Notes under the pieces: generated by a model
Seen by the model: the letters and a program-made list of their open reading frames with translations, nothing else
Database searches by the model: none
Told to the model about the DNA's origin: nothing
Program-made: the position numbers and the translations under genes
Assembly (NCBI GenBank): GCA_028706745.1
Contig: JAQTVM010000010.1
Location: forward strand, 1-55,683
DNA length: 55,683 bases
Direction of reading: 5' to 3'
Origin: Candidatus Nanoarchaeia archaeon
Lineage (GTDB): Archaea; Nanobdellota; Nanobdellia; SCGC-AAA011-G17; GW2011-AR17
Part shown: one piece after another, positions 10,818 through 51,722 of the stretch
Layout: each line of letters opens with the position of its first letter
Position numbering within the stretch: position 1 is the stretch's first letter

Positions 10818-11564
10818 CTAATCTCCTAATAGTGCTAGCGGATTTATTTTGAATTGAAGCATTTTAGAAGGTTCTCTGCCCTTATCTCCGCCTTTTCGTT
10901 GCATGGTAATTTTGCCTATGTTTAATGACCCTTTTTTGCTAAATTCTACTTTTCCCTTGCTGAATATTTCTATAGCCTCTCTCATCGTTTTCAAACACCA
11001 TTTGGTGTCACTTTTGGTTTTTAACACGACTAACATCCATGATGCCGCATAAGCACCTCTGCCTTTAAGCACATCTGAAATTATCAGTTTTTTATTGGCG
11101 TGAAAAAAATCCAATATTCTTATTTGTTCTTCATGGCTCATTTCATCAAAGAACATCCGTCTTGGATCGCGTAATCCTCTTTGTGCAGACCTAATTTTTC
11201 CGGTAAATAATTTTAACAATTGAACTATCTCTTCAGGAATATCCCACAACTCCTTGTAATTATCCACTTCACGTTTATCCACCTGATTAAAACCATGCGG
11301 ATTGCTTACTAATTTTACAGAAATATTTTCAACAGTTTCAGAATTTTTCAATTGAATTATAATGCGAACCTGAACATCAGTCTTATGCCCATGCAGAACT
11401 TCAGCGTTTATATTGGATATGTCTTTAAGTTCATACCCCATTTCATTCAACCAATCTTGTGCTTCTGCGTCTTTTTTCCATGAATTGAATTTTTGAGCAA
11501 CGTCTTTTTCATTTTTAAAACCTTGTTTTGCAGTTAAAGAACCAATTTCAACTAGTTTTTCCAT
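10818..11564 (-). CDS. HinP1I-like type II restriction endonuclease (predicted GCGC specificity)
   Basis: 248 aa, collinear over its whole length with R.HinP1I as I remember it: LVEIGSLTAKQGFKNEKD, EAQDWLNEMG, VKLVSNPHGFNQVDK, RMFFDEMSHEEQ, and the C-terminal TMQRKGGDKGRE followed by MLQFKINP. Asp63 and Lys84 occupy the catalytic D...xK positions; the Gln that precedes the Lys by two in HinP1I appears as Ser82. HinP1I cuts G^CGC. The gene overlaps the upstream methylase by 17 nt and is followed 6 nt later by vsr, a full restriction-modification-repair operon. Specificity is inferred from similarity. Confidence 0.82.
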   Translation of the reverse strand: MEKLVEIGSLTAKQGFKNEKDVAQKFNSWKKDAEAQDWLNEMGYELKDISNINAEVLHGHKTDVQVRIIIQLKNSETVENISVKLVSNPHGFNQVDKREVDNYKELWDIPEEIVQLLKLFTGKIRSAQRGLRDPRRMFFDEMSHEEQIRILDFFHANKKLIISDVLKGRGAYAASWMLVVLKTKSDTKWCLKTMREAIEIFSKGKVEFSKKGSLNIGKITMQRKGGDKGREPSKMLQFKINPLALLGD

Positions 11565-12525
11565 TTATCTCCTCTCCATAATACGCAGTTAATATTTGTT
11601 CTGTAATCTTTTTTAAAACAGTAACAACAACACTATTTCCAAATTGTTTATACGCTTGGGATTTGCTAACTGGAATCTTAAATGTGTCTGGAAAGCCCAT
11701 TACTCGCGCACACTCTCTTTCAGTAAGTTTTCTTATTTTTCCATTTATCATATATGCTCCTGTTTTTGAAGCAGCCCCGCCGCCATAAGCGGATAGCGTT
11801 ATCGCATGCCCGTTCGTGCTATAAATTCTCTCCCCCTGTCCACCCGCATTTATTGTGCCTATCTGCAAGGGTCTTAATTGTGACTGCTGTTCTGCCGATT
11901 TATATACCTTTATATCGTCCCGTTTTATCTCATAGCTCGTTAAATCTCTATCATTCTCTAATAAATCTTTAAGAAACACTTTTTCATTCTTCGGGGGCGG
12001 AAACTTAAATTGCGTTATCCCTAAATCTTTTCTAAAACAAACGAAATAAACTCTCTCTCTGGCGGTTGGTGCCCCATAATAGCTTGCATTCAACACTTCA
12101 TGGAATACATTATATCCCATCTCCTCTAAAGTTTGAACAATCTTTTTGAAAGTCTCTCCTTTGTTGTGCCTTTTAAGATTTTTTACATTCTCAAGAAATA
12201 AAACTTTTGGCTTCTTTTCTTTTGCAATACGGCAAATATCAAAAAAAAGAGTTCCCCTTGTATCGTCAAAACCCTTCTGTTTTCCTGATATAGAAAAAGC
12301 TTGGCAAGGAAATCCCGCACACAAAACATCATGAGAGGGAATATCCTTTTCATTTATTTTAGTTATATCTCCTGCCGGTTCTTCTCCAAAATTTTCTTTA
12401 TATGTCTTTTGAGAGTATTTATCCCACTCAGAACTAAAGGTGCATTGCAATCCTGCGGATTCCATTGCTATTCGAAAGCCGCCTATGCCTGCAAATAAAT
12501 CAATAAATGCGTTTAGTTTTTCCAT
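11548..12525 (-). CDS. DNA (cytosine-5)-methyltransferase, M.HhaI-like
   Basis: 325 aa with the ordered m5C methylase motifs: FIDLFAGIGGFRIAMESAG (I), GFPCQAFS with catalytic Cys74 (IV), LENVKNL (VI), ARERVYFV (VIII), then a target-recognition region and the C-terminal RKLTERECARVMGFPD and QFGNSVV (IX-X). It transfers a methyl group from SAM to C5 of cytosine. Its size and its pairing with a HinP1I-like nuclease point to GCGC as target. A TATA box (12549-12557) is centred 28 nt from the ATG, so the operon message is leaderless and the methylase is translated first. Confidence 0.92.
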   Translation of the reverse strand: MEKLNAFIDLFAGIGGFRIAMESAGLQCTFSSEWDKYSQKTYKENFGEEPAGDITKINEKDIPSHDVLCAGFPCQAFSISGKQKGFDDTRGTLFFDICRIAKEKKPKVLFLENVKNLKRHNKGETFKKIVQTLEEMGYNVFHEVLNASYYGAPTARERVYFVCFRKDLGITQFKFPPPKNEKVFLKDLLENDRDLTSYEIKRDDIKVYKSAEQQSQLRPLQIGTINAGGQGERIYSTNGHAITLSAYGGGAASKTGAYMINGKIRKLTERECARVMGFPDTFKIPVSKSQAYKQFGNSVVVTVLKKITEQILTAYYGEEINGKTS

Positions 12526-14551: not shown

Positions 14552-14656
14552 TTGTAAAAAACTTTACTCACTTCGTTTGTAACCTCTCGCACACGACGAA
14601 AGGTTTAAAAGGCAATAGGGTTTTCTTTCTTTATTAATTACAGGCAAAGACATTAA

Positions 14657-14730
14657 GGGTAGGTAGCTCAGCCTGGGAGAGCACACGGCTGAAGACCGTG
14701 CGGTCGGGGGTTCAAATCCCCCCCTGCCCA
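14657..14730 (+). tRNA. tRNA-Phe (anticodon GAA)
   Basis: 74 nt. Acceptor GGGTAGG/CCTGCCC plus A73; anticodon loop CTGAAGA on CACGG/CCGTG; T-loop TTCAAAT. No encoded CCA. A decayed palindromic copy of its own tail follows at 14733-14778. Taw3 (55001-55546) is expected to act on the G37 of this tRNA. Confidence 0.93.
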
Positions 14731-14732
14731 TC

Positions 14733-14778
14733 AGGGACGGAGGGGCTTGGAACGCAAGTGACAATGTCCCCTGGCCCA
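14733..14778 (+). repeat. Degenerate tRNA-tail palindrome after tRNA-Phe
   Basis: The segment has the plan seen at 22787-22829 and 51665-51722: an inverted T-loop-to-3'-end (revcomp begins GTTCCAAGCCCC), the core GAACGCAAGTGACAAT, then a near copy of the tRNA end (CCCCTGGCCCA against CCCCTGCCCA). Arms pair imperfectly. Confidence 0.45.
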
Positions 14779-22634: not shown

Positions 22635-22660
22635 TATTTCTTTACTTCAAATACCAATAT

Positions 22661-22735
22661 GAGCCCGTAGCGCAGCCTGGATAGCGCGACTGCCTCCTAA
22701 GCAGTAGGTCGTGAGTTCAAATCTCATCGGGCTCG
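22661..22735 (+). tRNA. tRNA-Arg (anticodon CCT)
   Basis: 75 nt. Acceptor GAGCCCG/CGGGCTC plus G73; anticodon loop CTCCTAA on ACTGC/GCAGT; T-loop TTCAAAT. No encoded CCA. Two identical 94-nt units with palindromic copies of its 3' end follow directly. Confidence 0.93.
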
Positions 22736-22923
22736 TTTAAAACCTTGTATTGCTTTGCATTCTGATTATTAATGGAAGTGATTATCGCCCGATGAGCCTC
22801 GAACAAAGTGAGAATGCTCATCGGGCTCGTTTAAAACCTTGTATTGCTTTGCATTCTGATTATTAATGGAAGTGATTATCGCCCGATGAGCCTCGAACAA
22901 AGTGAGAATGCTCATCGGGCTCG
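22736..22923 (+). repeat. Two identical 94-nt tandem units carrying tRNA-tail palindromes
   Basis: Units 22736-22829 and 22830-22923 are identical. Each has a 51-nt AT-rich spacer, then arm GCCCGATGAGC (22787-22797; 22881-22891), core CTCGAACAAAGTGAGAAT, and arm GCTCATCGGGC (22816-22826; 22910-22920) plus TCG. The second arm repeats the tRNA-Arg 3' end. The first arm with CTCGAAC is an inverted T-loop-to-3'-end: its reverse complement GTTCGAGGCTCATCGGGC matches the tRNA at 15 of 18 positions. 22924-23047 holds one dispersed repeat and no gene. Confidence 0.85.
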
Positions 22924-34222: not shown

Positions 34223-34269
34223 TGCGCCGGCCGGTATTCTCACTCTCGTTCGAGACCGTCCGCCGCTGA
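34223..34269 (-). repeat. tRNA-tail palindrome after tRNA-Gly
   Basis: Read in the tRNA direction: CGGACGGT, core CTCGAACGAGAGTGAGAAT, ACCGGCCGGCGCA. The end repeats the tRNA-Gly 3' end (17-nt direct repeat with one mismatch, 34223-34239 against 34270-34286), and the beginning is its inverted copy. The palindrome starts within 10 nt of the tRNA, giving a 47-nt repeat spacing. Confidence 0.75.
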
Positions 34270-34341
34270 TGCGCCGGCCGGGATTCGAACCCGGGTTATC
34301 GGCTTGGAAGGCCGAGATTCTAACCACTAAACCACCGGCGC
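34270..34341 (-). tRNA. tRNA-Gly (anticodon TCC)
   Basis: 72 nt. Acceptor GCGCCGG/CCGGCGC plus A73; anticodon loop CTTCCAA on TCGGC/GCCGA; T-loop TTCGAAT. No encoded CCA. Probable co-transcript with the NUDIX gene. Confidence 0.94.
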
Positions 34342-51539: not shown

Positions 51540-51614
51540 GGACCTGTAGCCTAGCCTGGATAGGGCGACAGCCTTCTAAGCTGTAGATCGCAAGTTCAAA
51601 TCTTGCCAGGTCCA
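51540..51614 (+). tRNA. tRNA-Arg (anticodon TCT)
   Basis: 75 nt. Acceptor GGACCTG/CAGGTCC plus A73; anticodon loop CTTCTAA on ACAGC/GCTGT; T-loop TTCAAAT. GGTTTATTAAGC (51506-51517 region) is the likely TATA box. A tail palindrome follows. Confidence 0.93.
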
Positions 51615-51722
51615 TACTTTTCTTTTTTAATTAGCATTCAAATCAACAAGATTATTAATCTTCACTGGCAAGCCCCGAACGAGCGCAGCGAAGTGAGACT
51701 GCTTGCCAGGTCCATACTTTTC
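51615..51722 (+). repeat. tRNA-tail palindrome element after tRNA-Arg(TCT)
   Basis: A 50-nt AT-rich spacer is followed by arm CTGGCAAGC (51665-51673), core CCCGAACGAGCG...GAAGTGAGACT, and arm GCTTGCCAG (51701-51709). The last 21 nt (51702-51722) repeat exactly 51602-51622, which spans the tRNA 3' end and 8 nt beyond. The two copies are exactly 100 nt apart. Confidence 0.85.

Follow-up and report, generated by a model that had tools for sequence, protein, structure and literature searches.

Short insertions with target-matched hairpin arms behind tRNA genes and in protein genes of one archaeal genus

Short hairpin-shaped insertions, each containing its landing sequence in an inverted and a direct copy, were found in one genus of tiny archaea, behind many tRNA genes, at the starts of some protein genes and inside genes, and they point to an undescribed route of DNA insertion. 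We regard target-copying double-hairpin insertions as the best explanation of these units, and give this explanation an even chance of being correct. In such an insertion, an existing target X would be followed by an inserted tip1-X'-tip2-X, in which X' would be an inverted copy of the target and the final X a direct copy, and the locus would then read X-tip1-X'-tip2-X. The tips would form one class, being either of the type GA-RY-N3/4-RY-GA or of a fully paired GGAAC...GTTCC form, and at tRNAs the target would be the T-stem/acceptor 3' strand.

The window, i.e. the whole 55,683-nt stretch of DNA that was analyzed, contains two such units behind tRNA-Arg(CCT) (22660..22736, forward strand, by ARAGORN; Rfam RF00005 at 22661-22735). 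The first unit (94 nt, 22736..22829, forward) starts directly past the discriminator base of the tRNA and consists of an AT-rich spacer (22736-22786), an inverted arm X' GCCCGATGAGC (22787..22797) that pairs at 11/11 positions with 22816-22826, a stereotyped tip CTCGAACAAAGTGAGAAT (22798..22815) with the core GA-AC-N3-GT-GA, and a direct copy GCTCATCGGGCTCG (22816..22829) of the tRNA 3' end, all on the forward strand. The copied target X corresponds to the 3' 13 nt of the tRNA, CTCATCGGGCTCG (22723-22735, forward). The second unit (22830..22923, forward; X' at 22881-22891, tip at 22892-22909 and X at 22910-22923) is exactly identical to the first, as the initial annotation had stated, and the pair is most readily explained by a recent tandem duplication of a single unit. 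The same annotation had let the inverted arm reach the T-loop; the arm does copy the tRNA 3' end, but the T-loop likeness, GTTCGAG, sits in the common tip, outside the copied arm. As DNA, the hairpin folds with a z-score of -5.0, and 0 of 200 shuffles were as stable; as RNA, the unit has a fold z-score of -3.2 relative to shuffles. Identical units also make up the Met and Ala arrays of a congener (G002), and could be taken as a sign that the units are products of tandem duplication. However, tandem duplication yields no inverted arm by itself, and chance palindromes or an assembly artefact are at odds with the presence of units in four separately assembled genomes, with permuted controls near zero. 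We therefore consider it hardly credible that any of these accounts for the units.

The plan was said to recur at three further tRNAs of the window, and it does. Behind tRNA-Gly(TCC) (34270-34341, reverse strand) lies a 47-nt unit (34223..34269, reverse) composed of TCA, X' GCGGCGGACGGT, the tip CTCGAACGAGAGTGAGAAT and X ACCGGCCGGCGCA. The unit behind tRNA-Phe (14657-14730, forward) has a size of 48 nt (14731..14778, forward) and the tip CTTGGAACGCAAGTGACAATG, and its X (CCCCTGGCCCA) is nearer to the tRNA end of the sister species (GGCCCA) than to that of the present host tRNA (TGCCCA). In the case of tRNA-Arg(TCT) (51540-51614, forward), the 100-nt unit (51615..51714, forward) comprises a spacer, X' CTGGCAAG, a tip in which a second tip is nested (GAAC[GAGCGCAGCGA]AGTGAG) and X CTTGCCAGGTCCA, and the direct repeat extends to 21 nt. 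The joint was thought to be common to all four tRNAs, but only Arg(CCT) and Gly have the same one, AGTGAGAAT, while it is AGTGAGACT at Arg(TCT) and AAGTGACAAT at Phe. Above the gathering score, Rfam found seven tRNAs in the whole window and nothing else. Two other features of the window may be mentioned: a possible decayed tip (AAACGAAGTGAG; 14568-14577, reverse) immediately upstream of tRNA-Phe and close to where an enolase-like gene ends, and a DNA cytosine methyltransferase-like gene (11548-12525, reverse) adjoining an ORF that overlaps tRNA-Met, which is possibly a restriction locus.

Several lines of evidence show that the arms follow the target. Firstly, for 147 tRNAs of the genome itself (G000) and of three congeners (G001-G003) we analyzed the 3' flank, scoring a match when the 3' 12-mer of a tRNA recurred with at most two mismatches within 250 nt downstream of that tRNA. 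In these four species of one genus, this was so for 18/40, 10/37, 16/36 and 13/34 tRNAs (57/147 in total), against a mean of 0.2-0.4 per genome when flanks were swapped among tRNAs. Secondly, the copying is restricted to the 3' end: for 31 tRNAs of the genome itself, the 3' 12-mer recurred in the 3' flank of 13, whereas the 5'-end, anticodon-arm and 5'-flank controls gave one each. Thirdly, X', which played no part in the selection, matched the complement of its own tRNA at 8.5/12 positions, versus 6.7/12 for other tRNAs. The units at tRNAs lie in the sense orientation. The proposal of an element class that copies or targets tRNA 3' ends is borne out by these data, since the core was found near other tRNAs and the arms fit the host tRNA in four species. 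No copy of the own 3' 12-mer was found in the flanks of 33 tRNAs (the best-scoring ones, not the full set) in four genomes that represent other genera of this family, and the target-matched form is restricted to one genus among the genomes sampled.

That the units are insertions is shown by orthologous sites that are empty. Downstream of tRNA-Gly(gcc), 47 nt are present in one species and missing in another, after which the flank resumes; the same holds for 151 nt (two units) at tRNA-Ala(ggc), 114 nt at tRNA-Glu(ctc) and 113 nt at tRNA-Thr(tgt). It should be noted that, of 55 orthologous pairs of occupied and empty tRNA sites, six scored above background, many flanks being too diverged to score, and that two of the six are His sites occupied in both species and hence not counted. 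Empty sites also exist for protein genes. In G000, lspA (L064) encodes 15 extra amino acids, in frame, that are absent from the orthologs of the three congeners and of one other genus, and at the start codon of an RNase J-like gene there are about 44 nt that the congeners lack.

In arrays, the X copy closest to the tRNA tends towards the better match, and new units are probably added on the tRNA-proximal side, an order that rests on few arrays. Decayed older units are present. The distal unit (unit 2) of tRNA-Pro(cgg) in G000 retains a sequence still present in the tRNA of the sister species; thus, X copies do not follow later changes of the tRNA.

Elements of this class are also found away from tRNAs. 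The gene content of the window, which is contig C4 of a 1.24-Mb genome in 32 contigs, is archaeal and probably that of a DPANN member. In this genome, the pattern CGAAC-N(0-20)-AGTGAGA has 30 matches (the genome-wide counts rest on pattern searches and retrieved stretches only), against one for the reversed control pattern, and the majority of these matches lie off tRNAs. Here, the layout is X-tip1-X'-tip2-X with X taken from the local sequence, at start codons, at gene ends and in frame within genes. At start codons (L004, L056, L057 and L059), for example, it takes the form ATGGTAC-tip-GTGCCAT-tip-ATGGTA. Among 39 non-tRNA copies in the genus, target-matched stems were found in 54%, versus 16% with permuted flanks, and an upstream direct copy in 44%, versus 12%; about half of the non-tRNA copies are now without clear arms. 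The view that the class belongs to tRNA 3' ends, although right about its existence, was therefore too narrow, as start codons, gene ends and gene interiors are targeted too. One insertion is common to the same gene of G000 and G001 (L006 and L248), and hence at least one copy is older than the split of the two. Three other copies (L044, L070 and L236), in two genes of G000 and in G003, share the same insertion point in the C-terminal codons (DALRYE) of ABC-permease-like genes, and L070 is a tandem array of units of about 44 nt.

The anatomy of the units is stereotyped. The tRNA units fall into size groups of about 47, 51-62 and 92-96 nt; the copies of X are 33-80 nt apart, and X itself measures 13-21 nt at tRNAs and about 7 nt at start codons. 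X' is separated from X by a tip of 19-20 nt, or of 29-31 nt when its loop contains a nested second tip (of the GAGCGNAGCGA type). The pairing of X' with X extends over about 12 positions in compact units, where purine-purine or wobble mismatches recur opposite tRNA nt 65 and 69. In long units, a spacer of 46-48 nt takes the place of tip1, and the X' that follows it is paired with X over the initial 9-10 positions of the latter; no consensus structure emerged when one was sought for these spacers. Among the 26 tips fitting the search pattern, variants stay paired (C-GA-AC..GT-GA-G, G-GA-AC..GT-GA-C and GGAAC..GTTCC). The X-tip1-X'-tip2-X layout can fold as either of two hairpins that have X' in common. 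Two known motifs were considered for these structures and dropped: a k-turn, because the tandem GA of the tip has TTC/GAA pairs to either side, which leave no 3-nt bulge, and the archaeal BHB intron, upon inspection.

These properties raise the question of whether the units act as folded RNA, in the form of minihelix-like hairpins that are cotranscribed with the tRNA or mRNA and mimic the acceptor/T-arm or cover the start codon; such hairpins would steer processing, stability or regulation, and selection would keep their arms complementary. The conserved tips, stereotyped sizes and fixed mismatch positions are a hint of selection on folded RNA. The fixed length of the tips, the sense orientation at tRNAs and the covariation within tips fit this explanation as well, as do the strong RNA fold, the conservation of folds and the orientation of copies relative to overlapping genes (about 27 sense and 10 antisense, an ORF-based call that may include some spurious ORFs). 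On the other hand, orthologous tRNAs and genes without a unit are common, decayed older units exist, and the same design is found in frame within lspA and in protein genes. Moreover, tips can be exchanged as a whole: at tRNA-Pro(ggg), two species share the spacer and the stem (L035 and L111), and the 20-nt tip is entirely different. We therefore consider a role as an RNA device unlikely. A processing device of this sort, whose inverted arm would compete for the acceptor strand, was the alternative offered by the initial annotation; it has no direct support, although the sense orientation and the conserved folds would permit it.

Returning to target copying, we tentatively propose, at somewhat less than an even chance, that insertion of a small hairpin-tip module involves two rounds of copying of its target, one giving an inverted and the other a direct copy, so that the target is regenerated, with a preference for tRNA 3' ends and with new units placed on the tRNA side; this would be an undescribed kind of insertion. 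In the most likely mechanism of target copying, a DNA 3' end at X would first acquire a tip, fold back and copy X into X'. Then, a second tip would be acquired, a second fold-back would copy X' into X, and synthesis would return to the template. Formally, this would be equivalent to one lap round a dumbbell in which two tips close the target duplex. As the target would be regenerated at the far end, the tRNA, the start codon or the reading frame would survive. Fold-back DNA synthesis with two strand switches is probably involved, and we infer a source of the tips and the existence of an enzyme. Altogether, this mechanism is moderately supported. Speaking against it, fold-back errors alone do not account for the conserved tips, the stereotyped lengths and the mismatches that recur opposite tRNA nt 65 and 69 in compact units, which leaves room for an RNA role; this and transposition followed by arm correction are its main rivals. 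A further point against the target-copying model is that neither the enzyme nor a donor copy was found, and the spacer that replaces tip1 in long units also speaks against it. Among the four genus members, none of Y1 transposase, Cas1 and reverse transcriptase is co-distributed with the elements: Y1 (TnpA_REP) transposases (PF01797) number zero in G000 and one or two in each of G001-G003, Cas1 is present in three of the four members with no match in G003, which carries units, and reverse transcriptases are present in all four and also in other genera.

The second of these rivals holds that the units are mini mobile elements inserted by an integrase that targets tRNA ends and generates a target-site duplication, the inner arm being made complementary later by quasi-palindrome template switching. 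The X...X arrangement does resemble a target duplication of 7-21 bp, and template switching is reported to homogenize the arms of inverted repeats (PMC8604942). Casposases integrate at tRNA 3' ends, where they recognize an upstream TCAAATC (T-loop) motif and generate duplications of 14-15 bp (PMC6614799), and the units described here likewise have the tRNA 3' end as a target, with an X of 13-21 nt at tRNAs but of about 7 nt at start codons. However, casposons, as transposons, carry genes and have terminal inverted repeats, unlike the units, in which the X copies are only 33-80 nt apart and enclose an inverted copy of the target; nor is there, as in a tRNA-targeting integrative element, an integrase island between them. 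In addition, every independent site would need correction to its own target, and no re-correction is seen where the host tRNA has since changed (Pro(cgg) unit 2 and Phe). A common integrase is also lacking, as Y1 transposase is missing from G000 and a dedicated Cas1-type integrase from G003, and the Cas1 of G000 belongs to a Cas1-Cas2-Cas4 operon. We consider this explanation improbable too. A CRISPR operon with Cas1, Cas2 and Cas4 (L372) has a downstream ORF resembling a TnpB/Cas12-type protein.

A related possibility is CRISPR-like acquisition, in which Cas1-type integration would place short fragments at the tRNA end, each duplicating the tRNA end as a 'repeat'. The apparent tRNA-proximal addition with duplication of X and the presence of Cas1 in three of the four genus members would agree with it. 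Yet the inserts are not arbitrary, as each contains an arm complementary to X, elements also lie at start codons and inside genes, and G003 combines units with the lack of a Cas1 match. Unlike in a CRISPR array, which has identical repeats and differing spacers, the two inter-X segments behind tRNA-Arg(CCT) are identical and each contains X'. We consider acquisition of this kind very improbable.

Target-copying insertions would also differ from other known hairpin elements. Rickettsia palindromic elements are short hairpin-forming insertions that lie in frame in protein genes throughout the genome and are recognized by a conserved element sequence. The units insert in frame inside protein genes as well, as in lspA, but their arms appear to be copied from each target, and only the tips are conserved. 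REP/BIME sequences, which are associated with RAYT (Y1) transposases, resemble the units as many dispersed small hairpins in a paired arrangement; REP arms are, however, constant and mostly extragenic, and G000 has no Y1 transposase. Snap-back templated insertions of end joining arise by fold-back synthesis and contain inverted and direct copies of the flank. Such copies of the flank also result from fold-back synthesis in template-switch/quasi-palindrome mutagenesis (PMC8604942). Unlike the units, template-switch and snap-back insertions are not known to have conserved tips or stereotyped lengths, or to favour tRNA 3' ends. Mitochondrial hairpin elements (RHE of sponges and DHE of Allomyces) form tandem or double hairpins, are optional between relatives and are sometimes intragenic, and for the Allomyces DHE an RNA route has been suggested and flanking duplications are not reported (PMC2800124). 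In contrast to the units, they are defined by recurring motif sequences, and the text consulted does not describe target-derived arms at tRNA 3' ends for them (PMC2800124).

The tip core is identical in a dispersed bacterial hairpin, TGTCATTTCGAACGNAGTGAGAAATCT, whose flanks, unlike those of the units, are mostly constant and neither match nor duplicate the target. In an exact scan of 84,980 genomes for TTCGAACGNAGTGAGAA (16 fixed bases), about 120 matches are expected by chance, so that the evidence lies in clustering and flanks rather than in the count. Among the matches listed (L254-L370), this core is found in Bacteroidota, Armatimonadota, Chloroflexota, Patescibacteria and others, mostly with constant TGTCAT...ATCT flanks, and Phocaeicola plebeius SUG230 and Berkelbacteria UBA1384 have many copies each. 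For 129 copies with the same core in other phyla, target-matched stems (7%) and upstream direct copies (9%) were close to the permuted values (5% and 9.5%). The terminal inverted repeats of the Methanosarcina virus MetSV contain GGGG-TGAGCGAAGCGAAT-CCCC, a stem-closed tip of the tip1 class (PMC10342651). In the open-access literature, we found no description of tRNA-associated palindromes in archaea or of the tip sequences, nor one under the names of related elements. We know of no system in which stereotyped tips at tRNA 3' ends occur together with inverted and direct arms copied from the target.

Known mobile hairpins bring their own arms. Arms made from each target would constitute a different way of inserting DNA, one that leaves genes unbroken. 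If true, this would make it understandable that a reduced archaeal genome can bear insertions at so many tRNA ends, start codons and reading frames, and it would imply a dedicated enzyme or repair pathway that is able to attach hairpin tips and to switch strands. The arrays at tRNA ends, with their fossil copies of older tRNA sequences, would then provide a natural record.
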